From Botrytis cinerea B05.10 (lineage: Eukaryota; Ascomycota; Leotiomycetes; Helotiales; Sclerotiniaceae): 64,000 nt of DNA. Shown here in pieces: positions 3,686 through 28,842 of this stretch (the first letter of the stretch is position 1; the number at the start of each line of letters is the position of its first letter). The notes beneath the pieces were generated by a model. That model saw only the letters and a program-made list of their open reading frames with translations, made no database searches and was not told the DNA's origin. The translations under genes were made by a program, and so were the position numbers. Where the stretch lies: NCBI RefSeq assembly GCF_000143535.2, contig NC_037322.1, forward strand, positions 1,860,001-1,924,000. The letters run 5' to 3'.

Positions 3686-4551
3686 ATTTATTAGATCATA
3701 TTCAACCTGGTTTTATGAACGGCATAAAATATAGGCTAGTATTTTTTAAGCGAGCGCTGGATTTCTAGTCAGGGGGTTTTAAAATTCTCCCCAAATTCCG
3801 CATAGCAAGATTACAATTACGGTCAAATTCTAATTAACCGTTGACAGATCTCAATTTGCTTCAGAGCGCAGGATAATACGTAAATAATGATTCGTGATTT
3901 GCAGCTATTATTATAAACTGCCGTAACTATCATTAATTGACAGTATTTAAATAATCACTGTTCACCGCGCGAAGAGAGCGAAAGGCAGTGAGACGTCAAA
4001 ACCGCACACATTCAATCGGTGTTAATAAGTGCAGCATGGAGCGCAACTTTATATTTGGTCATCTGGTCTTACGATTTCTGGTGATGTATAATGATTCACA
4101 CTCAACGTAGGATTAATAATCATAACATGTGGTACGGTGTGAATCGCAATTTAGTTTCTGGTACGGTACGTTTATACAGATCGAAATGTCGTTTCAAATT
4201 TAGAAATTTGACCGTAAACTCATTATTGCTGATATATTGTTAGCATTCTGTCTAGCTTTATGAACTAGATCTATGATACGGTGGTAGCTGTGACGCTAAT
4301 CTTGATTACGCTCTTTTGCTACGGCTTCTGATGTTTTTAGGAAGTCTTCGGCAGTGCTTATAAGGAAAATAACTGCCCTTCTCAAAAAAATTTCTAGATC
4401 TCCTTCTCATCGTTCATCAAAATCCTCTTTTATCAAAGACTCCCTTCATCAAAAACTTCATCTATCAAGAACTTTATCTTACATAAAAAACATTCAGATG
4501 AATCTATTAAACTCAATATCTAGCCATTTCGACCTTCCATCAAGACCAAAG
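3686..4551. other. Intergenic DNA upstream of the first intact array copy
   Basis: AT-rich with no recognisable gene. The last part (from about 4360) is pyrimidine-rich and is the likely 5' UTR of the next gene. An in-frame upstream ATG at 4498 would add 18 residues to that gene. Confidence 0.5.
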
Positions 4552-6176
4552 ATGTCTACGAAAGATCATTTTGAGAAGCATAATACTCAGAAAGAGCAGC
4601 TCCGCGCATCTACCGAATATCCGGATCTCACTCCCCAGGATGCTCTTCAGAAACGAGTTCTTGCTCGTTGGATCCATAAACAATGGTTCATGAAAGACGG
4701 AATGCGCCACATCATTTGCAGAGGTATGTGTATCACTTAATAACTTCAATCATTCGATACATACTAACTTGATAATCTTTTCAGATATTGAATATCACCA
4801 TTATAAAGCCCAACCTCGCCTTTGGAAAAACGTTTTGCGTTGGAGGTCAACAACCGATGTTCAGAATTATGTAGATTACTGGGAATATCCGGTTTCTCTA
4901 AAAGACGTAGATCGTGTATCTAAGGAGGCACGTGTGGCTCGCGAACAAATTGGAATTCATCCAAGTGAGGGAGGTTGGAATCTACCGAGATCTCACCCTA
5001 GACACTTGCTCAACTTTCCGCAGGGTAAGTTTGCCATCATTCAATTCTTATTATTTCCCATATAAACAATTACTAACTTTTGTTCCACTTGTAGAGATTC
5101 TGGACAAGATTATTGGTCATAATCTCATTGTCGGCGAGGACATGGGCTCTTTAGCTCCTAGACCGATGACCAGTAACAAAAACAGCGACTACCAAGAAGC
5201 CTACTACCAAATCGCTCGTCCTCCTTACCCTGGACCCGTCACCCAAGAGCTTCCATGTAATGGATACCGCGTGTATGCCTTTGCTGAAAAATACCGTCCA
5301 TCCATTGGAATGTCTGGAGACACCTTTTTCGAGAGAGGAACGCAAGCCATCCAGAAATCTGAATTGAGCGATGAAGTCGGGTCTTACATTCAGATGCGAA
5401 ATATCTTACGTCCAATGATTGACGCAAGCTGTCTCAGAGCATGTAAAGCCTTTCACGGTTATGGTACCGAGATGCTGTACAGACATAACAATTTTACGTT
5501 TGTCATTCCAACTTATAGGTACCCAAGAACATTTATGATGTACGATCAGGATGGACCTCGCTCAAGCTCTACCACCCCCAAGCCAGATAGGCACATAGAC
5601 ACCGTTGGGGCATTACAGCCATACAGAGAATGGTTAGCCGAAGTTAAAAACGTGGTGTCTCAAGTAAAACAATCTGTCAGCGACAAAGACCTAGCAGGTT
5701 GGGCTTACCAAGATCCTTTCATTCGATTCCTCTACGCTATTGGCCCGGAAAATGCGAAGCTCATCAAAACTCTCCAGTTTTCTGGTACCTTGAAAAGTCA
5801 TCACTGCGGCCCAGAAAATACTCGTCATAGAAATTGTGGTGAGGGATTCATGTTGAACTTCCTCATCTATCTACAATTCATCCGTGAGCTTTGTCCGCGC
5901 TTAGAAAAGCTTGTCTTGAACATCGCTCCGGATGTTCATCGTCGTTACGACAAAAACGAAGCAATGAGATGGTCTAGCTTCCGGCAAACCATTACTCCGC
6001 TCCTGGAAACTCATCTTAGAAAGTTAGAGACGGTCAAAACTTTGGTTCTATGCACCCGGAATGAAGAGAAACCAACTGAGCAAAATCATCTTTACGAACC
6101 GATGAAGTTTCCTCTTGCTGTAGAAACATGCAAATGGTTTGAAGATAGGGCCAGAGTTCGGGCATCAAATACTTGA
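4552..6176 (+). CDS. Tandem-array family protein, copy 1 (497 aa, three exons)
   Basis: Exons 4552-4723, 4785-5024 and 5095-6176, all introns in phase 1, give 497 residues. I chose the ATG at 4552, comparable in position to those of the paralogues; the ATG at 4498 is an in-frame alternative. I cannot name the family. Conserved blocks are an N-terminal KDGMRHIIC block, LPRSHPRHLLNFPQ at the end of exon 2, RPMIDASCLRACKAF followed by EMLYRHNNFTF, FIRFLYAIGPENAKLIKTL followed by FSGTLKSHHC, and a C-terminal WFEDRAR. The CxxxxxxxxxxLYxxNxF segment resembles the ending of fungal 2EXR/F-box-like domains, hinting at a protein-interaction role; this is inference. There is no signal peptide or transmembrane helix. 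Compared with copies 2 and 3 it is the more divergent (for example SCLRACK against ATLLRVCK). Confidence 0.8.
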
Positions 6177-6925
6177 TATCAATCGAGAATGCTTAACAAA
6201 TTCTCTGTGGAAAAAATATTGAGAGACTCAAGTCTAGAATTATTTGGTGTCATTGGGGCGGCATGCTAGGAGTTTGGTTAAGTCTTTTGACTTATGGATC
6301 TTGTTTTTTTTTTAGCTAGTAAAGAATGAATGAACTAAACTGAAAAATGTCATTAAATGATCTAATATTGTTTGACTCTTACAATCGTGATTCAATAACC
6401 CTGTAGAGTTACCTGATCAGTGATTTCTTTCAAAACTACCGACCATTCCCAAGTTTTACGACAGGCGACTTCAGTAAGTTTGTTTGACTGACATTCCTAA
6501 TTTGCCAATTAAAAACTCTTTCAGAATGAATAAATACCCTGCATGCACCGCCCTAAAAATCATTTCTCATCATTAAAAAAATGTGACGTTCATAGGCTCT
6601 CTCTTGGATCGGATGGAAAATTTGAACAAGAGAGAGGGCACGGAACCGTCCCATCTAGTAGTTATTATTGTGAGTGATGAATACGGAAATCAGATTTGAG
6701 TGGACTGAATAGAAATATTCCTGTAAATTCTCACAGAACTATGCCATACGGCATCTTGAGTATATACGCTCGGATGTTTCATTTGGATCTTGGTGCGCTA
6801 GTGCGTCGCTTAGTATATGCTGTATTATACTAGCGTCAAGGCAAGCGAGTCTGCCTCTTTCCAATGTCTTTTTAAGCTCCCTTCCTTCCAAGATCTATTC
6901 CTTCATAGTTTCTTCCAAGATCAAG
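6177..6925. other. Intergenic DNA between array copies
   Basis: No gene seen. Ends in a pyrimidine-rich leader that runs into the 12-bp minisatellite ahead of array copy 2. Confidence 0.5.
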
Positions 6926-6992
6926 TTCAACACCTACTTCAACACCTACTTCAACACCTACTTCAACACCTACTTCAACACCTACTTCAACA
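6926..6992 (+). repeat. 12-bp minisatellite in the leader of array copy 2
   Basis: Five perfect head-to-tail copies of TTCAACACCTAC (6926-6985) and a partial sixth (TTCAACA), ending 3 bases before the proposed ATG at 6996. It therefore forms the end of the 5' UTR of that gene. It is absent from the equivalent position in the other array copies. Confidence 0.9.
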
Positions 6993-6995
6993 GCA

Positions 6996-8694
6996 ATGTC
7001 AACACTATATCCAATTTCAAGCCTTCTATACGATCCCAGATATAGTACCAGAATTTCGCAACCCAAGCTTTATGGTCGCACAATTCCCTTCGGACCCTAT
7101 ACTCCGGAGGATCTAGAGAAAGCACGCCGCCAGTTTCCAGAGGAAAAGCTGGCATCTAGGGCGCTAGAAAAGCTTGCTTACGCTAATTGGTGTGGAAGTA
7201 GTAGCAACAAATGGTTCTGGAAAAATAACTACCGCTACACTTGCGGTGACGGTATGTAAAAATCACAGAAATAATCTAACATTTTTTTTTTTTTTTTTTG
7301 ATTTCTTGCTCACTCTGATCATTTTAGATATCATCTACAAACAAGTATGGGTGCCTAGAACCAAAGAAGTTCGTTGTCCATACAATTACAAAAAGTATTT
7401 GGTTCCACTGGGTGGCCCTCCAACGCTCTCCCAAATCGATATCCCAAAGCCACATAGGCTATCAAACCTACTCAAGCACCGGAGCGAAATGGAATGGAGC
7501 TTGCCTAGGGGTCATCCCCGCCATCTTTTGAATTTCCCACAAGGTACTTAGCTCCAAAATGTCGATTGCACACCGAATACTAATCATCTGAACGCAGAAA
7601 TTCTAGATTCTATCTTTGGGTTCGCATTGATCACCAAAGATCTCGCGGTTTTCCCCGATGTCTCCACCTCGAACAAGGTGCAAAAGTACGAGGATCCCAA
7701 ATTTCATCAAAACTACACATTAGGTGGAAGAGTGTGGGAGGACCAAGGTTACGTAAATATGATTTGCCACGACGCTCTTGATTTAAGTACGATTATTCAA
7801 GAGCAGCGATATGATGCCCAGGGGAAATACATTGTTATTCGGAGGGTTTTCCGCCCTGTAATCGACGCGACACTTCTACGGGTCTGCCGGAGCATTTGCG
7901 ATCAGGCAACTAAACTGTTATATGCAGGGAACGAGTTCCAGTTTTTGGCAACGAAGACCGGCAAGTTGGGTGCCCCAGATTCGTTGTTTGAAGACAAATT
8001 TTATCCAAACTCTTCATCAATCAGGGACTTTTGTCAAGGAAGAGATGATCAAGAAGCCGTAGATGTACGAGAAAGAGCCGCCCTTGATGCTATCAATATC
8101 ATCGAGAACAGAACACCGGTGCTAGATCTGGACTGCGACATGTATCACGATCTCTTCGTACGATTTCTTCGTGCGATTGGACCAAGCAAATCTGCTATGA
8201 TCAAGACTCTACATTTTGGCGGAACTATCAAGGCACACCACTGCTCTCAAGAATCCAGCTGTGGAAAAGTTCGCAAGTATTGCGAAGATGACTTGATCGA
8301 GAGTCTTCTGTTGTACATTCCTCTCATTAAGAGGTTTTGCACGAACTTACAAAAGTTGGTGATCAACATCATGTCGAGAGACAGAGATACCAGCGACAGC
8401 TTCAGGTCAGGTCCCACACAATTTAAGCACGATGAACGAGAACTCCAGTCTTATGCACGACTGCAAGCTTTGCTGGAAACCCAGATCAGAGGGTTAAGCA
8501 CAGTTCAACAACTACAGATTTACGATGAAGACCACGAGAAAGTAGATTGTGCGAGAGACACAGAAGCATGGTTTTCTGAGAGAACTCGCCGTCGGGGACT
8601 CGAGGCACTTGAGCAGGCAAAGCTACAGAGCAGAATGGAGGCGTTGGATATTGGTAATGAAAATGCCAGTAGCTCTGTCGAAACTTCTGTCTGA
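6996..8694 (+). CDS. Tandem-array family protein, copy 2 (522 aa, three exons)
   Basis: Exons 6996-7251, 7328-7543 and 7598-8694, introns in phase 1 at the same places as in copies 1 and 3, give 522 residues. Intron 1 contains a long T run; intron 2 is 54 bp. Conserved blocks are FPEEKLASRALEKLA near the N-terminus, LPRGHPRHLLNFPQ at the end of exon 2, RPVIDATLLRVCRSI followed by ATKLLYAGNEFQF, FVRFLRAIGPSKSAMIKTL followed by FGGTIKAHHC, and a C-terminal WFSERTRRR. After that point it is longer than copy 3, with a Gln/Glu-rich tail. Function unknown; the VCR...LLYxxNxF segment is reminiscent of fungal 2EXR/F-box-like proteins. The start codon directly follows the minisatellite, so repeat expansion could affect translation initiation; this is inference. 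Confidence 0.82.
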
Positions 8695-9562
8695 TATTCC
8701 GGAAAGGTACCAATATCCCACAACTCTCAATGGACAAGTCATAAGGTCTGATTCAATATCTAGAGATCAGGGATATCAAGTATTATATTGACGCACTAAA
8801 GGTGTTGAGTCCATACAAATGTGTCTTTTAATAAATGAAACAATATTCTACACTCATATTCCAGGTGCTTATGTTCGAAAAATTGTGATGAAAATAAAAA
8901 ATTGACAGTTGAAACGACAATGTTCTGCCAGCTGACTCTTCTCTAAACTATAGAATCGATGTTATATACTATTAATGAGCTCTGGCTAACAATTCACAAG
9001 TTAAGTCTTGACAAGATGCAAGTCAGACACTTCTTTCCGTGTCTTTGACTTCGATCTCTCTAGATTCTCCGGTGGTTTCCAAGTGATTCTTCTTCCACCT
9101 CACTGTTTTTCTTTACTCTATTGTATAATTCTGTACCTATTGGTGTTGATATCACATTGGAATCTGGCAAATGTCCACTTGAAAGAAACACACTTACCGT
9201 TAGGTCATGGTACTGTGTTGTGAGTAGCCAAGGATCATTTCCCGTGTTTGCATTGTCCAAAGTCGGCACGTGCCATGTGTTATCTGACTTCACTGGACGA
9301 GATGCATGAATTGAGTGAAGCAGGAGGAAAGTGAATATCAAAGATCTGATAAGACTGGAAACTGAAGTCTGGCACGTGCTTCGTTCACATACCTCGAATC
9401 TCAAAATCAAGTGTCCCGACTTGAGTTCAGTTTCCTTCAATAACAAATTCAACCTCAGTCACACCAGCAACTCTTGAGTGGATTGGTACAATAGATTGAT
9501 GGTGATTTCTTCATTCTTCTTGTTTCTTCAATCTCTCAAAATTGCGTATTGTCAGAATAAAG
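8695..9562. other. Intergenic DNA between array copies 2 and 3
   Basis: No convincing gene. Short open frames on both strands overlap one another and show no family resemblance. Confidence 0.5.
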
Positions 9563-11436
9563 ATGCCACCACGATTTCCTCCCCGCGTTCCGCGCGAACA
9601 TATCAACAATCTTCCGCCGATGACTCAAGACGATCTTGATACCGCACGCAAAGAGTTTCCTGACGAAAAGCTTGCATCGTGTGCGCTAGAAAAGTATGCG
9701 AAGAAGCATTGGATTGAAGGTCGCTACTTTTGGAAGGATGGTTTTCGTTACGTCTGTGGCTCTGGTATGTTGACTTTCCAATCCATGTTCACCAAAAACT
9801 TGGGATTGTTTGAGGGTGCAACATATTTATTTGGTCAATTGTAGATATTCGATACTTTACAGCCATCGTTCCTAGATTCGAGAGGAAAGATAGCTGTGAC
9901 CCCCGAAAGAGAACATACCATGTTGCCAAAAATACTCCGACATTAGACATGATTGATCGACCAAAGAAAAAAGGACTTCAGCGCTTGGTAGCACATCAGA
10001 GTGAAAGCAAATGGGCATTGCCTCGGGATCATGACCGACACTTGTTGAATTTTCCTCAAGGTAAGTTGTTTATTTTAAAATGAGTGCATGGAACATGAGC
10101 TCCTCTTCAACCCCCAGAAATCATAATCAATCCATCTTTCTCTCATTTCTTCCCAAAATACATGGTTCATTGTGCTATCCGTTATAGAAATGGAAACAAT
10201 CATTCTATAAGACTTCAAAGAAACCAAAAGAAAACTTCAAGGGTATCATCGCGCTAGAATCTCTTATAGTATCATGAGTCCATAAATTCATTGTTCTGCC
10301 ATTGGATTGTTCACTGCTAACCTTCTTTGACAGAAATCATTGATATGATCTCCCGCCGCATTTTGTTAATCGAGAATCATGCAATCACACCGGATGTTAC
10401 AAAATCGGACTGGGCAAGGGCGTTCAAGTCCCACAAGACCTATTCCCTGGATGGCGAGCAGAGTCTCAAATCAGAACTCGGCTTTAATACTGTCATCACA
10501 CGCCCTTGCAAAGATCAAGAAGGAGCATACTTTCAGCTTCGAAGAGTATATCGCCCCAGGATAGACGCAACTCTATTACGGGTGTGCAAAAGCTTCAGAG
10601 ATAATGCAACTAAATTGTTGTATGAGGAAAACGTGTTCCACTTTACAACCATGGATTGGAGTGTAACCGGAAGTCCCCTTTCTTGGATCGATCACGAGAA
10701 TACACGCAGCTGGTATATACCTGGAACCGAATTTTTCCAGCGCCCATTGAGTGAAGCTTCGTTACTATTAACAAGAATTTGGGAGACAGGGCAATTTGAA
10801 AGCTTCAAGCCAAATTCCCTTGCCGTTACTGACGCCATTCGCTTGATTGAAAGCTTGAGGAGCCCAGCACTAAAGGATTTCTCGTGTGCCTACAGCTATC
10901 ACGACCACTTTTTCCGATTTCTCCAAGCAATTGGGACAGAAAAGGCTAGAATGCTAAAGACTTTGAAATTCAGTGGAACATTTGTTTTACACATATGTGA
11001 CCGTCGCGGCTCCATCCACAACCCTAATAATTCAACAAGATCTTTGTGCTCTAAGGACCTGGTTGATACCCTTTGTTTGTATATCCCAATCATCAATAGG
11101 TTCTGTACCGGTTTGGAGAGACTGGTGATTGAAGTGCAGAAAGACCCTCATCCAGATTGGTCGTTGCTACTCAACTTAGGGGATCTGGACTCGGGCAGAA
11201 GTGTTCACCAAAAGTACATAACCTCCTTGCTTGAAGGAGAGCTCCGAAAACTGAAGACAGTAAAAATATTGGAAGTCTATCAAGTTTCCGAGGTCAAAGA
11301 CGCCACCCCTGCAGCAGAGCCTTCAATCGATAAACCTGAGCCCAGAAAACTCATGATAAAAGAGACGCTTGATATCGCAGAACCGACAATCGCATGGTTT
11401 AGAGATAGAGCTAGGGAATTAGGCAACGAGAAATGA
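9563..11436 (+). CDS. Tandem-array family protein, copy 3 (506 aa, three exons)
   Basis: Exons 9563-9764, 9845-10060 and 10334-11436, all introns phase 1, give 506 residues. Intron 2 (273 bp) is much longer than in the paralogues and contains no family sequence I can recognise. The start is the ATG giving MPPRFPPRVPREH. Conserved blocks are FPDEKLASCALEKYAKKHW and WKDGFRYVCGS in exon 1, LPRDHDRHLLNFPQ closing exon 2, RPRIDATLLRVCKSF followed by ATKLLYEENVFHF, FFRFLQAIGTEKARMLKTL followed by KFSGTFVLHIC, and WFRDRARELG at the C-terminus. The HHC motif of copies 1 and 2 is HIC here. Soluble, no signal peptide. Function unknown. Copies 2 and 3 look closest to each other, so the array probably grew by tandem duplication followed by divergence. 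Confidence 0.82.
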
Positions 11437-17872: not shown

Positions 17873-18143
17873 TGTAAAAGTGTAGAAGGTGGTAATGGTC
17901 ACACAAGAAAAGCCTTCGCATATACCAAGCATAGAGCAAGTGGCTACACGTAGTAAAATGGGGTGAATCGCTACATCGCGACAGCGAGGTGAGGGAGACG
18001 GTAGGAGCTGGGCACTCAATTCTTCAGGAGACAACTTTAGAAGGTAGAAAATTCGATGATATTTTTAGGTCTACAGAAGAGAAGCTATAAATACTAAACG
18101 TTGGTAGCACGTGACCCTGAAGTCACGTGTTTTCACTCTCACA
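17873..18143 (-). repeat. 3' LTR of the retrotransposon
   Basis: A 271-bp terminal repeat matching 28572-28842 with no difference that I can see. In element orientation it reads TGTGAGAGTG...CTTTTACA, with an inverted CACGTG pair near the U3 end and a TATTTATAG TATA-like box about 20 bp further on. Confidence 0.95.
18108..18129. promoter_or_regulatory. Inverted pair of E-boxes in the 3' LTR
   Basis: CACGTGAC, six bases (CCTGAA), then GTCACGTG: an 8-bp perfect inverted repeat with two CACGTG cores, the typical target of bHLH regulators (Cbf1-type in fungi). The same block is at 28807-28828 in the promoter LTR, just upstream of a TATA-like box. A role in transcription is inferred. Confidence 0.6.
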
Positions 18144-18157
18144 TTCCTCCCCACTTT
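18144..18157 (-). other. Polypurine tract
   Basis: On the minus strand AAAGTGGGGAGGAA abuts the 3' LTR, the position and composition expected for the plus-strand primer of an LTR retrotransposon. Confidence 0.85.
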
Positions 18158-18224: not shown

Positions 18225-18251
18225 TAACTTCGCGAAAAGTTTGCGAAGTTA
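18225..18251. repeat. 27-bp palindrome, copy 1 (3' of ORF3)
   Basis: Arm TAACTTCGC, spacer GAAAAGTTT, arm GCGAAGTTA, here extended to 15 nt from the centre by flanking CA/TG. It lies between the ORF3 stop and the polypurine tract. Confidence 0.95.
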
Positions 18252-18274
18252 TGAAATGCGTTTATCGTCTTCCT

Positions 18275-21166
18275 TTACGACTCTGGTTGAGAACTCCGAC
18301 CAGCAAGCCTTCCACTGCGTCTCTCTCCAGGAATAACTTCACGTATTCTTCTTGAACCTCTTGGTCGCCCAGGGAGACCTCGACTGTTGGAAAGGCCACC
18401 TCTCATTACGCCCGTAACTCCCTCGTTCTCGTCTCTTTCGTCGTTCAATCTCCTATCTTGTCCCGTGAGTTCGCGTCTTCTTCGTTTTACACGTCTGGTT
18501 CCTTGGGGAGAGGGGGCAGGGCTCGGGGGTTGGGGCGATGGAGGGGGAGTAGCATCTTCACCGCTGGTGTCTGTAGAGAATCCCAGCATTCCTTCTTCTT
18601 CATCGGCTGAAGCATATTTTCGTTTCTGTCCAGCTGCCGGTTCTACAGAGGCTACATAATAGTACGATTTTTCACCATAAGCCGATTCTTTAGAGATGAC
18701 ATCAGTGAAAGCGCGTTGATGTTGATGCCAAATTTCTTTCTGATGTCGACGGTACCAATCATGGAATTCGTCGTCAGTCATTTCGAGGAGGAGTGAAGCT
18801 TCGATGAGAACGGAGTGATTATCCCATGGCAATCTCCCGACAAGAGCTTGTTCGACAGGGTTTTCAGTAATCAGATGGCATTCGGCAGCAAACCCTGGAA
18901 TTTCGTGTTGTCCATCCCACGTGACTGTCTTGTTGAAGATTGGCTTCAAGTTGCTGTGGGCATCCCTCAGGTCTTGGTACTTCATGCCATTCTCGAGGAT
19001 CGGATCCAAGGTTCCATCATTTCTTTTCTTCACAGCCGTATATGGAACAATTGTGGCTGCGAACGGCTCATCCCCGTACGCGTCCATGTATGGCCGGATA
19101 GAGGTAGGGTTCCCTCCAGCTACGAGTGCCCACGAGTTATTCCGTCCATTCATGTACTGATCGGACTTCGTCAAGTTGGTGTAACTCTGGTGTCGTCTCT
19201 TAGCTGTGATATCATGAAAGAATCCATGATCGAAGATCATCTTGCCCTTGCCAAGCGTACTTTCAGCCAAGGTTCTCCAGTCTGTATCGTTCAGAGCGGA
19301 AGGTTTAACCCTTCCGTGTACGACTTCAGTTTGCGACGTATTCTCACCATTTTCGTCATGGGAATGTACGACGTACGCTGTAATGTGATCCGCTACCTTG
19401 TAGTCGGATACGGTATACAGGTCCCTAGCATTTCCATGCACAAAGGTGCGATCAAAGTCTTCCTCTGCTTGGATGATGAGCGCAGGGAATGGTACCGTCA
19501 CCAAGCGGTACTCCTGATCCATGCGTTGTTTAGCCACTTCTCTCCAAAGCATCAGGTCTTGTCTGCAGCCTTGCTGCCAAGGGGCGTAGTAGCAGTGATG
19601 AGCGAAGCCAAGTCCCTGCTTTTCGTACCGGTTGTGGTGACAATACATTTTTATCGATGCAGACACAGAATCGGAACATCGGTCCATCAACATAGTGAGG
19701 ATTGGATCAGTAGCCAACGCTCTTCGTCTACCTACTTCATGAACTTTTGTGAGGGTGGCGGGTGGCTCCAGTTCGAACGCTGGCTCACTAGCTGAGGGAT
19801 TTAAGGGTCGAAACTTCAAAACTCCAAGGATCCTCTTCTTCCTTTCCTTGTTCGCGCCTTCGTTTAGCTTGAACCAGGCGAAGTACTTGTCGTGTATCCG
19901 CACGTCGTCGATACGGTCCCTGCGTTTATACACAGTTTTGAGACGGTGGACAAGATACTCGCTCTTCACTCGAGTAGTTTTGAGGCCTAGCACGTTCGCT
20001 AGGTGGCGGAGGTGGAAGTTGCAAAGTCCTTCAGGTCTGCGCGGAATTAATTCGGCCATGGTCATCCAGCCGATTTGTTTGGCCACGAATTTTTCTTTCA
20101 AGGCTAGGTACCAGTCCTTTGATACTAGAGCCTCCGGTGGGCATTTGCACGATTCGGGCTGTTCCACATTTTCTGCCTCCTCCTCACTTCCCAATGGTGC
20201 AGCTTGTCTCACGATCCACTTATCCATCAAGCAATTTTGTCGCGGCTCTTTGTCTTCTTCAGCCACTGTGACTCCCAATCTTGACCATCTCTCCAGGTTT
20301 GCGATCACTTCCTCATTGGGAGGTGGAGATGGTATGGCACTGAATTCAATGTGTGAGTCTCCTGCCGGTGGGACGTCTTCCGAGTAGTCGGAACTTTCCT
20401 CTCCAAGCATTCCGACCATATTGTACTTAAGGCCAAGTTGTTTTCGACTCTCGTCATCCCACTCAAAGGCTTTAAGTTCTTGCTTAGGGTCGAGGACTTT
20501 GAAAGCCATCCTAAACTCAGAAGGCATCAAGTGTCTGTTAACCCGCACTCCAGGCTTGGGGGGGCTTGTCAGTCGGCGTATGAGCTCTCCATTGACCACT
20601 TCTAGTAACGTGTCGGGGTCAGCCAATTTGACTACTTTGGTTAGCTCATATTGGAACCTAGTTCCGTATGTCATGATGAGGATTGTGGCGAAGGTAACGC
20701 CTTTACGAGAATGGTGCCACAGCAGGCTGAGTTTGTCGATAGCCTTTTGTCGCATGCGCCGAATCTTTTCTATTCTTGTGAGAGTCTCTTTGTTGTCGAT
20801 CTTCATTTGCTTCGTCGATACATTGGCTTTGATGTGGAGATTATCTCGAATGATGGTGATCATGGACATTTCTTTCAGGTTGTCTCCGCAGTCTTTCTGA
20901 GCATCAACCCAGTTATTGAACTCTAAGTACTTGGCGTATCGTTCTTCTTCCGGAAATGTTTGGATGGCTTCATGGGCCCTCATCATTGCTAGTATAGCTT
21001 CGTTCCCTGCAGTTATTATCGCATTGTGTCGCATGTGCTGAAGTCGTATGTCTGACACATCAATCATCATGGCCTGATCTTGTTCTTCCTCATTGCCACT
21101 AGGGGCTGGAGATTGGTTGTCTGATGAATGGTGGCCTGAACCTGTACTATTGTCTTCGTCCGACAT
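18275..21166 (-). CDS. Retrotransposon ORF3 in the env position: unknown 963-aa protein
   Basis: ATG at 21166, 412 bp downstream of the pol stop and 21 bp after a palindrome copy; stop at 18275, just before another copy and the polypurine tract. I do not recognise the whole protein. Residues 1-40 are acidic and disordered. Residues about 384-412 (LRHLANVLGLKTTRVKSEYL then VHRL) fit the SAP DNA-binding motif pattern. Residues about 509-534 hold a Cys/His cluster (CHH, then HHC 14 residues on, then C) that could bind zinc. The tail from about residue 870 is Pro/Ser-rich with KRRRR and further Arg-rich runs, a likely nuclear signal. No signal peptide, membrane segment or furin-like site is visible, so it is not an envelope protein. 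It lacks RT, integrase or obvious tyrosine-recombinase motifs. A nuclear or nucleic-acid-binding accessory role is inferred. An uninterrupted frame of this size implies selection. Confidence 0.9.
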   Translation of the reverse strand: MSDEDNSTGSGHHSSDNQSPAPSGNEEEQDQAMMIDVSDIRLQHMRHNAIITAGNEAILAMMRAHEAIQTFPEEERYAKYLEFNNWVDAQKDCGDNLKEMSMITIIRDNLHIKANVSTKQMKIDNKETLTRIEKIRRMRQKAIDKLSLLWHHSRKGVTFATILIMTYGTRFQYELTKVVKLADPDTLLEVVNGELIRRLTSPPKPGVRVNRHLMPSEFRMAFKVLDPKQELKAFEWDDESRKQLGLKYNMVGMLGEESSDYSEDVPPAGDSHIEFSAIPSPPPNEEVIANLERWSRLGVTVAEEDKEPRQNCLMDKWIVRQAAPLGSEEEAENVEQPESCKCPPEALVSKDWYLALKEKFVAKQIGWMTMAELIPRRPEGLCNFHLRHLANVLGLKTTRVKSEYLVHRLKTVYKRRDRIDDVRIHDKYFAWFKLNEGANKERKKRILGVLKFRPLNPSASEPAFELEPPATLTKVHEVGRRRALATDPILTMLMDRCSDSVSASIKMYCHHNRYEKQGLGFAHHCYYAPWQQGCRQDLMLWREVAKQRMDQEYRLVTVPFPALIIQAEEDFDRTFVHGNARDLYTVSDYKVADHITAYVVHSHDENGENTSQTEVVHGRVKPSALNDTDWRTLAESTLGKGKMIFDHGFFHDITAKRRHQSYTNLTKSDQYMNGRNNSWALVAGGNPTSIRPYMDAYGDEPFAATIVPYTAVKKRNDGTLDPILENGMKYQDLRDAHSNLKPIFNKTVTWDGQHEIPGFAAECHLITENPVEQALVGRLPWDNHSVLIEASLLLEMTDDEFHDWYRRHQKEIWHQHQRAFTDVISKESAYGEKSYYYVASVEPAAGQKRKYASADEEEGMLGFSTDTSGEDATPPPSPQPPSPAPSPQGTRRVKRRRRELTGQDRRLNDERDENEGVTGVMRGGLSNSRGLPGRPRGSRRIREVIPGERRSGRLAGRSSQPES

Positions 21167-21578
21167 CGTGAAAGTCTGTGTTGAATGTAACTTCGCGAAA
21201 AGTTTGCGAAGTTATATTTTACAGAAAAGGTGAAAGTATTTTTAAGAAAAGATATAAGAGAAGGGAATTAGTGAGAAGTAGGATTTAAAGGAGGCAAGAG
21301 AGATATTTTTGAGATAGGGAGCTGCTGAGTAAAGGGTTGTAGTGTTTTGAACCTCAAGTGAAGAGAGAAAATGGAAACTCTGTCTGCCTTTATAGAACTT
21401 TTCTAGCTCTTCTGGACTTAGATGTGGTTCTCTAAGCGATCTAATTATAAAGGCAATGAAAGGGTATAATACAAAGAGACGCATTCTTAACCCGAATAAG
21501 GAAGTTCTCGATTTCTAACAAAGACAAACGAAGTTTACCATTCTACCCTACCTTGGTGTATGGTTGACGCCCCGTCAA
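21167..21578 (-). other. Pol-ORF3 spacer with one palindrome
   Basis: A 412-bp non-coding gap between the pol stop and the ORF3 ATG. Palindrome copy 2 (21188-21214) is near its downstream end. How ORF3 is translated (splicing, subgenomic promoter or internal entry) is not evident from the sequence. Confidence 0.7.
21188..21214. repeat. 27-bp palindrome, copy 2 (before ORF3)
   Basis: Same 27 bases as the other copies, same orientation of the asymmetric spacer, 21 bp upstream of the ORF3 ATG. Confidence 0.95.
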
Positions 21579-24500
21579 TTACTCTAGCACTGTTGGAAAA
21601 GCGCGTCGTGTTGATGGGCTAATGGCTGGGATTTCCACTACGACACGAGTATTGGTGTTTGTCGGTGGTGTGACATCTTGATTCTCCTGTATGTGATCTA
21701 TCATGTCCTCTGTTGTCGTAAAGCGTTGAGCGATTCGCTCGCTCCTTCTTGGATTTAGCAATGCTTCCAGAGGGTCTTCAAGTTCATCTTCAGTGATATC
21801 TCCCGTATCCTCTTCTTCTCCTCCGACTGGGATGTATTCTCCCTCTCTCTTGACGAACTTCTTAAGGCGGGCTCCTGAATAAGTCCCATCAATTGGAGTT
21901 CCATCCATTTCTTCCAGAATGTAAGTGCTCTTGTTCGGTAAGACTTTGTTTACACGGTATGGACCAAGCCATCGGTATCCAAGTTTCCTTTCTCTAGACA
22001 TGTCGATTTTCGACTGCGGATCAAATTGAAGAACTATATCCCCTGCAGTGATTTTCTTGTCAATCACATTGTTGTCTTTGTCAAAACGCGCCTTTCCGTC
22101 CAGACGATATCGTTTCTTGCGCATTACCGCTTCCTCCATGTCTAAATCGTGCATTTCTAACTGGCGAAGACGTAACGTCAAGAGATCTTCACGGGAAGTA
22201 ACCTTTTCCCAATCTAAAACTCTCCATGTGCTATATTGCGTTTCTATGGGTAACACCGGGTGGCGTCCATAGATCACATAGAATGGAGTCAGATTGGTCG
22301 GTCGGTGTGTGGTCACCCTGTCAGCAAACAACATTGCGTCCAAGTGACGCAGCCATCCGCTTTTACCATCCATCACCTTTGCCAGTCCGTCAGCTATGGG
22401 TCTGTGTCCTCGTTCAATTTGGCCGTTTGCTTTCGAGTTGTAGGCGGAGATCTGCACCCGTTTGATCCCATACTTTCTCAAGAAATATTCGACGTGTGCC
22501 TTGTTTTCGGGTCCTCCGTCCACAGAAACCTTGCCAAAGACTGAATGCCTACAAACGACATTCCAAATGAAAGCAGCGACGGCTTGCGACGTCGCATTTC
22601 TCAATGGCTTGGCTTCGATCCAACCTGATAAATCATCTCGTAAAGAAACAAGGTATTTGTAGCCGTTATCCGGGGGCATGTACATGATATCTAAGCCGCA
22701 TTTTTGCCAACAGGTGCTCACCCACGTAGGGTGCAGGGGTTCTTCTTGGACATTGGGTTGTCGTTTCTGGCAATTGGGGCAGGATTTGACGAATCGTTTG
22801 ACATCTTCATACATTCCATTCCAATAATAGAGCTTGTGTACCTTGTCAAATGTGCTTTCAACCCCTTTGTGACCGTACGCTTCGTGCAAGTTACCGATTA
22901 GTGATGTCCTTTGTTGTTGCTCATCGATAACCTTGCGGTGCGGTGTATCACGAGTCCCATTTCTGTATAAACACCCCTCACGTACGGAGAATCCTAAGGC
23001 ACGCTTTTTGAATTTCGAAAATTCTTGGCTTGTCATGCCTTCGGGACGCTGCAGACTGGTTAGATATTGAGCGATCTTTCGGCTCTCACTATTGTATCCC
23101 TTGTCCAATTCGTAACTTCGCGAAAAGTTTGCGAAGTTATGTATAGTAGAAACATCTTCCACATTGTTGAGTTGATCTGCAATCCACTCATCAATGTCTT
23201 CCTCCTTATCTTCCTCAGATACATCAGAGAGTGTGGCTGGTCTTCTTGAAAGTCCGTCAGCAGCAGTGTGGGCTGTGCCTTTAACATGTCGCACTTCAAA
23301 GTCGAATAGCCTAATCCACGCGATCCATCGAGTGACCAGAGCTCCGGGGAGGTCTGTTGCCGCTCGATTCAGTTGGGCAACTAAGACTTTGGCATCTGTT
23401 TCCAGAACGAAGTGTATCCCGTATAGATCGAATCTACATTTTCGAAGAGCTTTTAACACTCCTCTACACTCCCTTTTTGTCGCATCATAGTTCTTTTCGG
23501 CGTCATTCCATAGTCCACTCTCAAAGCGCGCAACGGTGCGTTTTCCTCCAGATTCTTGTCCTAAGTGTGCTCCCCATCCATCGATGCTAGCGTCCACTCC
23601 GAGGACAATTTGTCCAACAATCATCGTATCTCCATAGTCTAAAGGCATCAGGGTTGGAGGCTTGATTAAGTTCTCCTTCAGCGACTTCATCGCTTGTTCT
23701 TGTTCAATTGTCCATGAGAATTCAACATCCTTCTTGAGCAAGCGATACAATGGTTCCGCTTTCTGTGCAAACTTTTCAACCCATATCCTGTAGTACACGC
23801 AGACACCTAGAAACATTCGGACTTCTGTTGCTGATTTGGGTTCTGGCCAGTCAAGGATCTTTTTGATTTTGGCTTCCACAGGCTTTCGTCCTTCTGATCC
23901 AACTACATAGCCTACCACTTCCATTCCATCATAGCACCACTTGGACTTTGCACCAACAGCACAGCCTGCGCGCTCAAGGCGTTCAAGGGTTTTATCAATT
24001 GCTTGGATATGTTCTAGAACGAACTTTCGCACACCCGGTACTATTTCTTTGTTGTCATATACCGTTTTCGGTCCTTTGATGCCGATATCGTCCAGAAAGG
24101 ATATTGCCACTGACGGAGTCAAATCACCAAGAATTTTCATAATGATACGACAGAATTGAGCTACCGAGTTGGTTGCTCCTTGGGGAAGTGTAGTGTATCG
24201 GAGGAGGCCAAGCGGGGTCTGGAAAGCTGTTAAGTCTCTGCTCTCGAGAGCCAGAGGTATCTGATCATAACCAGAAAAGAAGTCGATTAGTGAAGCTACC
24301 GTGCAGCCTGCAAAATTTTCCGCAAAAGCATCTGCATCAGGAGGTAGATTCGCATCTCGAATCGTGTGTCGATTCAGCTCTACCACAGCATTGATGATTC
24401 GATAGGCGCCTGGGGTCTTCTTTTTCACCAAGAACCACGGATTACGATAAGGCCCATCGCATGGTTCGAAGACTCCTTGCTTTATTCTATCTCTAAGCAT

Positions 24501-25238
24501 AGTAGAAACCACTTCCACTAAGGCTTTTGGAACTGGGAAACCAGGAGTTTGCCAAGCCTCATGGGGAACAGTTCGAATTCTTTGTGGTGGGGCTACGTCC
24601 TCTTGTACCCGTCCAGCATGTGTCCAGTCGAATGCTAAGGCCCCTTCTCGATTGAGGAGGCAGGCCATCAGTATGTCTCTTTCCAAATCCGTCAAAAGAT
24701 CTCCGCAATCAATCGCCTTTGTTCTTTCTGGAGTGAGCCGATACCCTTCAGGTTCTTTGTTGAAGCGGGGTATAAGAAACTCTTTCCATCTCCCGGATGG
24801 CTCTTGATACGGATTTCTTAACTGATCACGCTCAAACCAATCGTCTCTTCCGCCAGGGGGTTCTCCAGTGATGTTACATGGTTGATTCGAGGGGCGGACC
24901 TTCGTAGCTTTGTTCTTGTACATTGTATTTACTTGTTCCACATCGTCATTCACGATGTGAATATTGAACAATTCTTCGAAGGTTTGAGAGGATATAATGT
25001 GTTTTCCTTCATCTGACCTTTCTAACATGTTGAAGCAGAACTCCTGAAATTCGGTACTAAGGGAAGCATATATTCTTGCAAAATGCTCTGTCTTGCCATC
25101 GTCATAACTTCGCGAAAAGTTTGCGAAGTTACGAGAACTGGGGGAATTGGGGAAATTGCCGACACATTGTCCCCTCAATGTGTCAGTGCCTAGTTTTCCG
25201 ATTGCATCACTGTCTGAAACTTCTGCCCAGCACTCCAA
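21579..25238 (-). CDS. pol: Retrotransposon ORF2: reverse transcriptase, RNase H and integrase
   Basis: The frame is open from 25241 and has no ATG near its start; it is expressed by -1 frameshift from ORF1, entering at GKLGTDTL. Numbering from the TTG at 25238, RT motif A is SLIDFFSGYDQIPL (about 316-329), motif B LPQGATNSVAQF (351-362) and motif C FLDD (381-384). RNase H runs from GVDASIDGWGAHL (D549) through KRECRGVLKAL and ETDAKVL. Integrase has an HHCC finger (LHEAYGHKG...CPNCQ) and the catalytic triad in GLDIMYMP, VDGGPEN and GQIERGH. A GPY/F-like module, YRWLGPYRVNKVL, precedes an acidic C-terminus. NFANFSRSY occurs at residues 37-45 and again at 701-709, before and after the RT-RNase H block; both are encoded by the element's 27-bp palindrome. 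All catalytic residues look intact. Confidence 0.95.
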   Translation of the reverse strand: MECWAEVSDSDAIGKLGTDTLRGQCVGNFPNSPSSRNFANFSRSYDDGKTEHFARIYASLSTEFQEFCFNMLERSDEGKHIISSQTFEELFNIHIVNDDVEQVNTMYKNKATKVRPSNQPCNITGEPPGGRDDWFERDQLRNPYQEPSGRWKEFLIPRFNKEPEGYRLTPERTKAIDCGDLLTDLERDILMACLLNREGALAFDWTHAGRVQEDVAPPQRIRTVPHEAWQTPGFPVPKALVEVVSTMLRDRIKQGVFEPCDGPYRNPWFLVKKKTPGAYRIINAVVELNRHTIRDANLPPDADAFAENFAGCTVASLIDFFSGYDQIPLALESRDLTAFQTPLGLLRYTTLPQGATNSVAQFCRIIMKILGDLTPSVAISFLDDIGIKGPKTVYDNKEIVPGVRKFVLEHIQAIDKTLERLERAGCAVGAKSKWCYDGMEVVGYVVGSEGRKPVEAKIKKILDWPEPKSATEVRMFLGVCVYYRIWVEKFAQKAEPLYRLLKKDVEFSWTIEQEQAMKSLKENLIKPPTLMPLDYGDTMIVGQIVLGVDASIDGWGAHLGQESGGKRTVARFESGLWNDAEKNYDATKRECRGVLKALRKCRFDLYGIHFVLETDAKVLVAQLNRAATDLPGALVTRWIAWIRLFDFEVRHVKGTAHTAADGLSRRPATLSDVSEEDKEEDIDEWIADQLNNVEDVSTIHNFANFSRSYELDKGYNSESRKIAQYLTSLQRPEGMTSQEFSKFKKRALGFSVREGCLYRNGTRDTPHRKVIDEQQQRTSLIGNLHEAYGHKGVESTFDKVHKLYYWNGMYEDVKRFVKSCPNCQKRQPNVQEEPLHPTWVSTCWQKCGLDIMYMPPDNGYKYLVSLRDDLSGWIEAKPLRNATSQAVAAFIWNVVCRHSVFGKVSVDGGPENKAHVEYFLRKYGIKRVQISAYNSKANGQIERGHRPIADGLAKVMDGKSGWLRHLDAMLFADRVTTHRPTNLTPFYVIYGRHPVLPIETQYSTWRVLDWEKVTSREDLLTLRLRQLEMHDLDMEEAVMRKKRYRLDGKARFDKDNNVIDKKITAGDIVLQFDPQSKIDMSRERKLGYRWLGPYRVNKVLPNKSTYILEEMDGTPIDGTYSGARLKKFVKREGEYIPVGGEEEDTGDITEDELEDPLEALLNPRRSERIAQRFTTTEDMIDHIQENQDVTPPTNTNTRVVVEIPAISPSTRRAFPTVLE
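23113..23139. repeat. 27-bp palindrome, copy 3 (RNase H / integrase junction)
   Basis: Same 27 bases, inside pol. Read on the minus strand in the pol frame it encodes NFANFSRSY (residues 701-709), between RNase H and the integrase zinc finger. Confidence 0.95.
25105..25131. repeat. 27-bp palindrome, copy 4 (Gag-PR / Pol junction)
   Basis: Same 27 bases, inside the start of pol, in the same reading frame phase as copy 3, encoding NFANFSRSY at residues 37-45. It is 30 bp downstream of the frameshift hairpin. Confidence 0.95.
25161..25199 (-). promoter_or_regulatory. -1 ribosomal frameshift signal (slippery site and hairpin)
   Basis: On the minus strand GGAAAAC (25193-25199) ends exactly at the ORF1 stop TAG. 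After an 8-nt spacer (TAGGCACT) comes a perfect 9-bp hairpin, stem GACACATTG / CAATGTGTC with loop AGGGGA (25161-25184). A -1 slip moves GAA AAC TAG to GGA AAA CTA and continues into ORF2. Spacer and hairpin fit known -1 sites; the P-site bases GGA are not three identical bases, so the heptamer is slightly non-canonical. Confidence 0.75.
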
Positions 25239-27697
25239 ACACTAGCTTGAGTTTCTCTGTCATCATCCACGACTGTAAGGTATTGTGCACCATCCCTGTA
25301 TGTAAAGCTAACCTCTCCTGCAATAAACCATGGCATACCTAGCAATAGTTCGTTGCGAGCGTTTTCCATAACGTAAATATTGATCACATTCGAGACTCCT
25401 CCCAATGCAACACGAACGTCTCTACAAATTCCTCTTAGATTTAAGGAGTCTGCACTGATGCCCACAATGGTTGTCTGGACTGGGCTGATGGGTAGATTAA
25501 GTTTTCTAGCCAAAACAGAGTCGATCAGGTTGATCGTGGATCCTGAGTCCGGGATCGCATTGACTGGACCTAGGCCGTTGACACTAACTTTAACCTTCGG
25601 GAGGCTTTCTCTATCTTCATTTGTAGTGTATACTAAGTCGGTGTGGTTTACTTGCTCCGGGGCTTCAGGTCGAAGATTAGTAGGAAGTCGGTTGATGGCA
25701 TTAATCAAGTGGCTGTTCAACTCTGAAGGCATAGTAGGATCGCCTACTCTGGTTGTCCATCTTTTCCAAATGGCTGGACATTCCCTGAGTATCAGTCCTA
25801 GAGACACGTTAATAGTTGATGAGAGAATGTCTCTATCAAGCTCTTCTATACTGCCGAAGGTATTCGTCATGAGCCTAGGCATCATTCTCTTCCTTGGTTT
25901 CTTTGTCTTGTCAACAACCCTTTCATAGATAATCTCTGGTTCGTTGGGGTCTTGGATATCCATGGGTTCAGTATCTGGCTCAGCCCCATTGTGGCTAAGA
26001 GTATCTTCCTCAGGAGACATCAAGTGAGCATATTTAAGAACCTTCGAAGCAAGAGTAGAATTCTGATTCTTCGCGCTCTTGACAGGTGGTTTGTGAACCT
26101 TACTAGGACCGTGTGGAGGTCGGCCGCGTTTCCTAGGTTCAGAGCTGACCGCATTAACATATTCTCCTATAGTGAAATTTTCTGGGCTGTCGACATTGAG
26201 AACTTCTGCGGTATATATATCTTCAATTAGCTGTACTTGCTCCACTTCTCTCTGTGGTTGGTCCCATCCGTTTGACTTAGCTCTCAAGCTCACCGCCTTA
26301 GCAAGGGAACCTTGAGTCTTGTGGTCGTGAATGATAGGTGAGGGATTCTCCTTTGTATCCTTTGGTCCCCAAAACAGCTCGCCATATTGATTATGATGTA
26401 TATATCCATAGTCAATGTACTCTTTGAAGACAGGACAGTCCTTTTTGAAACTGTGATCTTCTTTCCCAGGGTATTGGTTTTGGCAAAAGTAACAATATCT
26501 CCTCTGAGCGACATTGACATATTCTACACTGTCGTCCATACCATCTTGCACATTGTTCGAGCCCAGAGAGGGGTAGTATGTTGACATTTGGGGTCGCGTA
26601 GCAAGAGGGATTCTGTAGTTCGAATGGGGGTCAAGTATCTGCACTTTTCCTTCCGTTCTCTTGGGAGCTTTCTCTTGTTGGGTTATTGCAGAAAAGCTCT
26701 CAAGCATTTTCGTGATTTGCTCGATACTGTCTGCCTTTGGGATGACAGGACTCTTGGCTTGCACTTTGGTTTTCTTGAATGAAGTGACAGTATCGATCAA
26801 CTCTTCCAGACCCGAATCTTCCTCAGAATCGCTCACCTCGAGGATCCTAAATTGGGATTCATTGTCTGTATATTGCATTACCCATTGAAAGACTTTATCC
26901 CACTCCACTGTACCAGGTTTCTTCAGGTCTATCTTGAGTCCAGCAATGCACTTGCGAGCAGCTCTTTTAGGGATGTTTTTCAAGAAAGTTTCAGTGACCT
27001 CGCTCTTGGTTGAAGCTTTGTCTCTAATCAAGCGTTGGGCGACTTGATTATACTGACGCGTAAAGCGTGCAAGTGCGTCAGCATTGTCTTCCCCTTCCTG
27101 TTTATATTTCTTAGCAAGACGACGAATGTAGTCTCTCGAATACATTTTCTGATGAATATCATCTGCCAAGTGCTCCTTGAGAAATGCAGGCTTGAATTTG
27201 CGTTCCCAATCCCAACCTTCTTGCTGCCACTCTTTCATGGCCTTAACATCCTCTCGAAGAGTCCTTTCCACCTGCAATGGAATTCGAAGACGGAAGTCTT
27301 CCTCGTTCATCCTGTAGTTGCGTCGGAGTTGTTCCATGCCTTCACACCACTCTGTAGCATTGGAACCTTGGAACCACGGCATTCCTTCTTGTCCGGGGAG
27401 GGGCAATGGTGGGGCATTTGCTCTGCTCAGTTGTTCCAAAATAGCAGCAAGTTGTGCAGCGCTAACGTGCCCATCTTGCGGGAACACATTGGCGCTTTGC
27501 TTCTGTTTGACAGACTCGGTTTTTCGTTGCTCCTTTACTTGTTGAGGGAGTGGTCCTTCTCCTGGAGCTTCGGGGGTGTCTCTCTGTTCCCGAGAGTTGG
27601 ATGCAGTGATCGGAATTGATGTATCGGAAGCCGAATCAGAGATCGAGTCTCTCTCCCTCATTTGACCAGCCTCTCCTTCGAATTTAATGGGTTCCAT
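25190..27697 (-). CDS. gag-pr: Retrotransposon ORF1: Gag and aspartic protease (835 aa)
   Basis: ATG at 27697, stop TAG at 25190-25192. Residues 1-75 are polar and disordered. Residues about 105-285 form a capsid-like helical region (MPWFQGSNATEWCEGMEQLR; FTRQYNQVAQRLIRDK) typical of Ty3/gypsy Gag. A Cys/His motif C402-x2-C405-x9-H415-x5-C421 resembles the Gag zinc knuckle but is longer than the canonical C-x2-C-x4-H-x4-C. Residues 717-721, DSGST, are the active-site loop of a retropepsin, and LLLGMPWF about 65 residues later is the second conserved block, so the protease is in the gag frame. Downstream ORF2 is in the -1 frame, and the last sense codons form a slippery heptamer immediately before the stop. 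The product should build the particle and process Gag and Gag-Pol. Confidence 0.93.
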   Translation of the reverse strand: MEPIKFEGEAGQMRERDSISDSASDTSIPITASNSREQRDTPEAPGEGPLPQQVKEQRKTESVKQKQSANVFPQDGHVSAAQLAAILEQLSRANAPPLPLPGQEGMPWFQGSNATEWCEGMEQLRRNYRMNEEDFRLRIPLQVERTLREDVKAMKEWQQEGWDWERKFKPAFLKEHLADDIHQKMYSRDYIRRLAKKYKQEGEDNADALARFTRQYNQVAQRLIRDKASTKSEVTETFLKNIPKRAARKCIAGLKIDLKKPGTVEWDKVFQWVMQYTDNESQFRILEVSDSEEDSGLEELIDTVTSFKKTKVQAKSPVIPKADSIEQITKMLESFSAITQQEKAPKRTEGKVQILDPHSNYRIPLATRPQMSTYYPSLGSNNVQDGMDDSVEYVNVAQRRYCYFCQNQYPGKEDHSFKKDCPVFKEYIDYGYIHHNQYGELFWGPKDTKENPSPIIHDHKTQGSLAKAVSLRAKSNGWDQPQREVEQVQLIEDIYTAEVLNVDSPENFTIGEYVNAVSSEPRKRGRPPHGPSKVHKPPVKSAKNQNSTLASKVLKYAHLMSPEEDTLSHNGAEPDTEPMDIQDPNEPEIIYERVVDKTKKPRKRMMPRLMTNTFGSIEELDRDILSSTINVSLGLILRECPAIWKRWTTRVGDPTMPSELNSHLINAINRLPTNLRPEAPEQVNHTDLVYTTNEDRESLPKVKVSVNGLGPVNAIPDSGSTINLIDSVLARKLNLPISPVQTTIVGISADSLNLRGICRDVRVALGGVSNVINIYVMENARNELLLGMPWFIAGEVSFTYRDGAQYLTVVDDDRETQASVWSAGQKFQTVMQSEN

Positions 27698-27833
27698 TTT
27701 GTCTGAAATGATTCTTTCCTTCTTTTTCTAATGTTTTATTCTTGATCGGTTGTTGCAGGTTGCAATCTTGGAAGGGTAGCAAGACTTTATACCGTTGTTT
27801 TCGTACAACTTCGGAGTCTTTTACCCTTCTTCA

Positions 27834-27860
27834 TAACTTCGCGAAAAGTTTGCGAAGTTA
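27834..27860. repeat. 27-bp palindrome, copy 5 (leader)
   Basis: Same 27 bases, in the leader 137 bp upstream of the ORF1 ATG. Confidence 0.95.
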
Positions 27861-28553: not shown

Positions 28554-28570
28554 CCCTGCGTAGGTCACCA
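28554..28570 (-). other. Primer-binding site
   Basis: One base after the 5' LTR the minus strand reads TGGTGACCTACGCAGGG. TGG pairs with a tRNA CCA end; the rest would be complementary to a tRNA acceptor and T-stem 3' half. I cannot assign the tRNA species. Confidence 0.75.
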
Positions 28571-28571
28571 A

Positions 28572-28842
28572 TGTAAAAGTGTAGAAGGTGGTAATGGTCA
28601 CACAAGAAAAGCCTTCGCATATACCAAGCATAGAGCAAGTGGCTACACGTAGTAAAATGGGGTGAATCGCTACATCGCGACAGCGAGGTGAGGGAGACGG
28701 TAGGAGCTGGGCACTCAATTCTTCAGGAGACAACTTTAGAAGGTAGAAAATTCGATGATATTTTTAGGTCTACAGAAGAGAAGCTATAAATACTAAACGT
28801 TGGTAGCACGTGACCCTGAAGTCACGTGTTTTCACTCTCACA
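28572..28842 (-). repeat. 5' LTR of the retrotransposon (promoter copy)
   Basis: The upstream LTR in element orientation. It should carry the promoter: the inverted E-box pair at 28807-28828 and the TATTTATAG box (minus strand, about 28783-28791) lie near its 5' end. Same sequence as the 3' LTR. Confidence 0.95.
28807..28828. promoter_or_regulatory. Inverted pair of E-boxes in the 5' LTR
   Basis: Second copy of the CACGTGAC / GTCACGTG inverted repeat. In element orientation it lies within the first 40 bases of the LTR, in the expected U3 enhancer region. Confidence 0.6.

Follow-up and report, generated by a model that had tools for sequence, protein, structure and literature searches.

A 27-bp palindrome common to gypsy and copia LTR elements in Botrytis cinerea: a candidate protein-recognition site

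In this study we analysed a 64,000-nucleotide (nt) stretch of the Botrytis cinerea B05.10 genome (NCBI RefSeq assembly GCF_000143535.2, contig NC_037322.1, positions 1,860,001 to 1,924,000 of the forward strand; here C13:1860001-1924000), hereafter the window, which carries on its minus strand an 11-kb Ty3/gypsy-like retrotransposon bounded by long terminal repeats (LTRs). Within this element the 27-mer TAACTTCGCGAAAAGTTTGCGAAGTTA, a palindrome with a spacer, was identified in five exact copies starting at 18225, 21188, 23113, 25105 and 27834, all in a single orientation and at intervals of 2963, 1925, 1992 and 2729 bp. No sixth copy was found in the window at up to 3 mismatches, and the chance expectation was 0 in 100 dinucleotide shuffles of the window; the five copies, their spacings and the exclusion of chance given in the initial annotation were thus borne out. 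The same annotation had set one copy before and after each functional block. The positions are exact, but the gene order must be reversed because the element lies on the minus strand, and two of the five copies, s3 and s4, stand within an open reading frame (ORF) and are not intergenic. The features are as follows (window positions, with element coordinates in brackets; aa, amino acids).

28572-28842, minus strand: 5' LTR, 271 nt, 100% identical to the 3' LTR (1-271)
28554..28570, minus strand: TGGTGACCTACGCAGGG, immediately internal to the 5' LTR, a putative primer-binding site assigned by position and sequence
27834..27860, minus strand: palindrome s5, in the leader between the 5' LTR and gag (983-1009)
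25193..27697, minus strand: Gag-protease ORF, 835 aa, Asp_protease_2 at E 2.7e-10 (1146-3650)
25105..25131, minus strand: palindrome s4, in pol, close to the N-terminal end of the frame, reading NFANFSRS (3712-3738)
21582..25241, minus strand: Pol frame, 1220 aa, with RVT_1, RT_RNaseH and Integrase_H2C2 above cutoff and rve below cutoff (3602-7261, containing s4 and s3)
23113..23139, minus strand: palindrome s3, inside pol in the RNase H-integrase linker, reading NFANFSRS (5704-5730)
21188..21214, minus strand: palindrome s2, upstream of ORF3 and 21 bp from its ATG, with a decayed counterpart at the homologous place in relic L050 (7629-7655)
18278..21166, minus strand: ORF3, 963 aa, no recognised domain, under purifying selection (7677-10565)
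18225..18251, minus strand: palindrome s1, past the stop codon of ORF3 and ahead of the 3' LTR, sense reading TAACTTCGCAAACTTTTCGCGAAGTTA (10592-10618)
18144..18157, minus strand: purine-rich tract AAAGTGGGGAGGAA before the 3' LTR, identified by eye
17873-18143, minus strand: 3' LTR, 271 nt, 100% identical to the 5' LTR (10700-10970)

The LTRs begin and end with TG...CA, the domain order protease-reverse transcriptase-RNase H-integrase is present (the rve core match being the one below its cutoff), and the Gag-protease, Pol and ORF3 frames are all open. The insertion is young, as its two LTRs are identical. Three more copies in the genome are 99.91-99.94% identical to the window element over the 10 kb compared and each carries five sites, and all 20 palindromes of these four full copies (family I) are identical. 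Family I' (L008, L009) is an internally deleted family I, and a 2.3-kb mini-element (L021 4082-6417) consists of family I LTRs flanking the C-terminal 549 residues of ORF3, with the frame open.

To place the palindrome in its genomic context, the 42,630,066 bases of the 18 contigs of this single genome were searched. Exact arms with any 9-bp spacer gave 38 sites, and the degenerate arms TAACTTYGC/GCRAAGTTA with a spacer of 3-20 gave 145, against 0 for backward-pattern controls; since the same arms with spacers of 3-8 and 10-30 gave 0 genome sites, all 145 have a 9-bp spacer. An AT-rich decayed form at up to 3 mismatches accounted for 90 counts, partly overlapping the other searches, with changes that resemble C-to-T / G-to-A decay. 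Twenty loci of 8.5-10 kb, 20 short stretches mostly chosen as solitary or odd, and 14 further stretches were read, and the palindrome was found at 13 positions in five LTR families that include both gypsy and copia elements.

Family I: gypsy, the window element, with five sites
Family II: Ty1/copia (L012, RVT_2 at E 4.6e-33), with a site in each LTR and two internal sites
Family III: copia-like (L014, RVT_2 at E 9.6e-10), with two internal sites
Family IV: gypsy with chromodomain, Boty-like (L024), with a site in each LTR and one inverted in gag
Family V: putative small LTR element (L045), with 75-bp repeats that are 90.7% alike

Among 162 labelled sites, 160 are in LTR families, a raw count that is not scaled to the share of these families in the genome; 28 of the 160 were labelled only by how far they lie from an adjacent Boty gag site, and the others lie near a Boty R-U5 or gag match or inside a fetched element. 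At least 235 positions were listed, which is a lower bound, as the eight fetched family III copies contain 16 sites, five of which the list lacks. A labelled site outside any family, C5:2369613, stands in AT-rich DNA near a decayed copia-like reverse transcriptase frame, and a second such site, C3:9701 (L048 2502), has family-type arms around an atypical spacer, GAATATTCT, with no element recognised. Of the 20 short stretches, 17 could be aligned with families I-IV, either at the site or next to it, and one, L030, only weakly (70% over 84 bp; taken as family II); L026 and L036 showed no alignment beyond the site or AT-rich DNA, L026 being assigned later to family V. The palindrome pattern had 0 matches each in viral_contigs (spacer left open) and genome_contigs, collections that are uninformative for fungi, and a spread into viruses or prokaryotes was rejected on these counts.

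The families also show features of their own. Family III exists in 6.4-kb (L014) and 5.0-kb (L019) forms, the short one without about 1.4 kb that includes the reverse transcriptase match. Two antisense ORFs are present in copia family II (L012 6301-7753, minus strand), the longer one with a cysteine-rich stretch. CACGTG boxes occur in the LTRs of family I (two), family II (two), IVa (one) and IVb (two), and are absent from those of families III and V.

Alignment of the 13 positions gave a 31-bp consensus with flanks, YR-TAACTTYGC-RMACTTYTY-GCRAAGTTA-YR, in which 19 of the 27 palindrome columns are invariant. Mean identity over all 78 pairs was 0.914 in the 27-mer versus 0.283 in 20 flank bases, and over the 63 between-family pairs 0.903 (lowest 0.815) versus 0.271. 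The flanking dinucleotide is YR in 12 of 13 cases on each side (p 3e-7 each, background 0.236), a pattern that was noticed in the same data. The centre of the palindrome is not free: RMACTTYTY resembles the AACTT of the arm, as if present a third time.

Five of the 13 positions fall in coding DNA, where the palindrome reads NFANFSRS in family I (s3 and s4), VTSQTFREVI in family II, and VTSQEVREVM / ITSQEVRKVT on the other strand in families III and IV. The use of different frames places the constraint on the DNA and not on the peptide; peptide-level selection was rejected because three frames are in use and none of the 120 Pol homologues listed for family I, out of 332 found, contains NFANFSR. 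Across families the sites occur in both orientations. An RNA hairpin acting in packaging, processing or small-RNA production, which the initial annotation had suggested in part, would be in keeping with the 9-bp stem (-10.2 kcal/mol) formed by the sense RNA of family I and with the pairing of 91.9% of cells versus 18-40% in slid controls, a figure that a DNA dyad would give likewise. However, none of the nine pairs is altered on both sides, 500 of 500 shuffles reached the covariation score, 6 of 11 distinct sites have lost pair 7/21, and a hairpin sits poorly with sites in both orientations, so that this explanation, already disfavoured, seems to us scarcely credible.

The palindrome is better kept than its surroundings in the Boty-like U3. 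The gag-pol regions of the two types IVa and IVb are 96-100% identical in 14 of 17 windows of 300 bp and 85-91% in the remaining three. Within their LTRs the site matches at 26 of 27 bases, the segment from the site to the TATA box at 109 of 178 and the segment from the TATA box to the end at 183 of 189, while upstream of the site only 67 of 211 columns pair and the sequences are mostly unalignable. The internal site was listed in 34 of the 40 best-scored Boty gag matches, among sites listed; the other six gag copies have none in the list, but three of them (L052-L054) were aligned, and an altered site was recognisable in 3 of 3. Two further observations concern these elements. The LTR of L051, compared with those of L024 and L046, shows U3 replacement on a near-identical R-U5. 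Between pol and the 3' LTR there is an antisense ORF with a cysteine-rich motif (L024 6476-7129 and L046 5611-6255, both minus strand), which is 43-45% identical between subfamilies and thus far more diverged than gag-pol.

Among 14 Boty gag-region homologues, six plus the near-identical P0123 align across the internal site and the other seven do not. Four Monilinia fructigena gag proteins are without 11 residues that span most of the site, and two from Sclerotinia sclerotiorum have a different linker in which the peptide is absent and the alignment is loose. The simplest reading of this gap is that the site was gained in the Botrytis line, with loss in Monilinia as the alternative, and the palindrome probably arrived as a block. 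As for the pol sites, 107 alignments span the RNase H-integrase linker, and the 40 examined vary freely in length and sequence; the N-terminal site s4 was reached by only 4 alignments. The "module boundaries" of the initial annotation are therefore better described as insertion-tolerant places, namely untranslated regions, intergenic gaps and a freely varying linker: they look like boundaries because the site stands where insertion does little harm.

Both a mobile palindrome and a protein-binding site, each among the earlier hypotheses, emerge as serious candidates. The former, in which a unit of 27-31 bp would copy itself into LTR elements, or be carried there by template switching among co-packaged RNAs during reverse transcription, and have no function for them, much like a nuclear, eukaryotic equivalent of the Rickettsia palindromic elements, would account for the discrete block in Boty gag that the four M. 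fructigena homologues lack, for the sharp drop in similarity 1-2 bp beyond the palindrome, for the position of in-frame sites in linkers and for the many changes that are CpG transitions. It fits less well with the assignment of all but two of the 162 labelled sites to LTR families (the raw count given above), with a site that is better kept than its U3 surroundings, and with an s2 position that is old although its sequence is unchanged in active copies (see below); moreover, no target-site duplication is demonstrable in the DNA of one genome. We therefore regard a purely mobile palindrome as unlikely, though it is the main rival, as the CpG-type variation could mean youth.

Exchange of modules at the palindromes, another earlier proposal, was rejected: three kinds of mapped deletion junction, those of family I' (L008, L009), of the mini-element L021 and of the short family III form L019, all lie away from the palindromes. 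The same junctions bear on a site for a tyrosine-type recombinase (lox/rox-like) that would invert or exchange DNA between elements. Inverted arms surround an asymmetric core, and the arm resembles that of loxP. No inversion was seen among the copies aligned at deletion junctions, no recombinant junctions lie at the palindromes, and the core differs between the two sites of family IV. The outer letters TAACTT are those of roxP, whereas the arm and core lengths match neither lox, with 13 and 8, nor rox, with 14 and 4 (PMC4777119). A recombinase site is accordingly a very improbable explanation.

ORF3 is the obvious element-encoded protein to consider as a reader of the site. The two homologous proteins found were from B. 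cinerea, P0121 (97%) and P0122 (strain T4), the latter 100% identical to a frame in this genome. This frame belongs to a relic on contig 4 (L050), which retains a 26-residue gag match, a pol C-terminus over two frames, one LTR remnant and the ORF3 homologue:

L050 2175-5267 (C4:446174-449266), minus strand: ORF3 homologue of the relic, an intact 1031-codon frame with 915 aa from Met, identical to P0122

Over 903 aligned codons ORF3 and the relic homologue share 62% identity, with a nonsynonymous divergence (dN) of 0.25-0.27 and a synonymous divergence (dS) of 1.67 (LWL85) or saturated (NG86), and their differences fall 221/182/516 by codon position. These figures show that ORF3 has been under purifying selection, in which the share of the relic lineage itself is indistinguishable; it is possible that the relic homologue is a domesticated gene. 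A decayed palindrome lies 20 bp before the ATG in the relic (21 bp in the window element), matching the degenerate consensus at 20 of 27 bases (7 mismatches) and the window 27-mer at 18 of 27 (9 mismatches), and near the place of s1 there is a weak match to a single arm (E 0.03). Since the decayed s2 is recognisable despite near-saturated silent sites, at least the s2 position is old, and the palindrome of the active copies has not drifted. When ORF3 was compared by BLASTP with the family II and IV antisense ORFs, no match was better than E 2.7, and the Pfam matches of P0122 up to E 10, ParD_antitoxin (0.24) and Remorin_C (2.9), were below cutoff.

Taken together, we propose, with confidence only slightly better than even, that the palindrome is a DNA-level recognition site for a sequence-specific DNA-binding protein that would bind as a dimer or higher oligomer, shared by unrelated LTR retrotransposons. 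A protein-binding site, maintained by selection and handed on between families, is suggested by the fixed 9-bp spacing, the long dyad, the use of both orientations and several frames, and the conservation in U3 above its surroundings. Unrelated elements would each have acquired the site, one to five times, at insertion-tolerant places, and would have retained it since the bound protein helps the element, most likely via chromatin or transcription, given the sites in U3, in leaders and before ORF3. As to the reader, ORF3 is the best element-encoded candidate, a tentative choice to which three things point: its family has the most sites, one of them lies 21 bp before its ATG, and the protein is conserved. 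A host factor is about equally likely. Matches to ORF3 came only from family I, its derivatives and relics, so that other families must use it in trans if it is the reader.

Several points weigh against the proposed recognition site. The binding protein is so far a candidate only, be it ORF3 or a host factor. Neither Pfam at E 0.01 nor the PDB yielded a match to ORF3, and Pfam up to E 10 gave the weak hit Ca_chan_IQ (0.059), below cutoff; its predicted structure has a mean predicted local distance difference test score (pLDDT) of 30, and it was matched only within family I, its derivatives and relics. The changes at columns 7, 10, 18 and 21 are CpG transitions, a variation that is also expected from the young spread of a neutral sequence, and part of it may be mutational. 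The LTR site is dispensable: U3 type c, read from a single LTR (L051), is unrelated to the others and has no site, although the R-U5 next to it shares 97% identity with that of type a, and among sites listed the site stands upstream of 27 of the 42 best-scored R-U5 matches. Finally, the labels cover 162 of 235 listed positions, with 73 left over.

The LTR without a site also bears out in part what the initial annotation had named as refuting it, namely full copies lacking the palindromes: one Boty-like LTR type lacks its site, while the three further family I copies keep all five. The same pair of facts is relevant to a host repressor or clustering factor whose site the elements tolerate or have tamed. 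Such a factor would act at the DNA level and be common to unrelated families, as seen here, and the CENP-B homologues at Tf2 LTRs offer a precedent (PMC4981269). However, a purely harmful site should be lost, and though one LTR does lack it, all five are kept in each of the four full copies of family I, which leaves this explanation rather improbable.

An extension of the proposed recognition site, doubtful at present, is that a common 31-bp "address" spreads between gypsy and copia families as an insertable block, in frame if needed, and that a single trans-acting factor, for which the ORF3 protein is a possibility, keeps it almost unchanged; this would amount to a community-wide helper or control system across superfamilies. 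A shared site of this kind would open to test how one cis-element comes to be present in unrelated retrotransposons, how the site moves between elements, and whether elements exploit the helper protein of another family. No description of the palindrome in print was found in the open-licence literature, and a literature text search with pieces of the 27-mer returned only a Pseudomonas efflux pump paper.

Rickettsia palindromic elements are in-frame palindromic insertions in unrelated proteins and are longer than the 27-31 bp seen here; the palindrome studied here is fungal and lies, so far as its sites were examined, in LTR retrotransposons. The families described here are very probably the BcGypsy/BcCopia and Boty elements of B05.10, although the names were not matched one to one, and the available part of that account does not mention the palindrome (PMC8365987). 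B. cinerea retrotransposons are reported there to make small RNAs acting in plants, and the palindrome offers a bait of known sequence for finding its factor in such a fungus (PMC8365987). Binding of a protein to LTR retrotransposons has a parallel in fission yeast, where CENP-B homologues localise to Tf2 LTRs; the portion of that source available mentions no 27-bp palindrome common to elements of the gypsy and copia types (PMC4981269). The VANC/VANDAL system of Arabidopsis is alike in having a short DNA motif repeated within copies of a transposable element, but its motifs are of 8-9 bp and form dense arrays in the non-coding DNA of VANDAL elements (PMC5735166). Dense same-orientation arrays of the VANC type were not seen here, where single, widely spaced palindromes of 27-31 bp, few per element and also in coding DNA, occur in LTR retrotransposons of both superfamilies. 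The VANC6 motif is also present in the unrelated Arabidopsis transposable element AT9TSD1, which by analogy may serve as a precedent for an unrelated element bearing the motif of another family's helper (PMC5735166).

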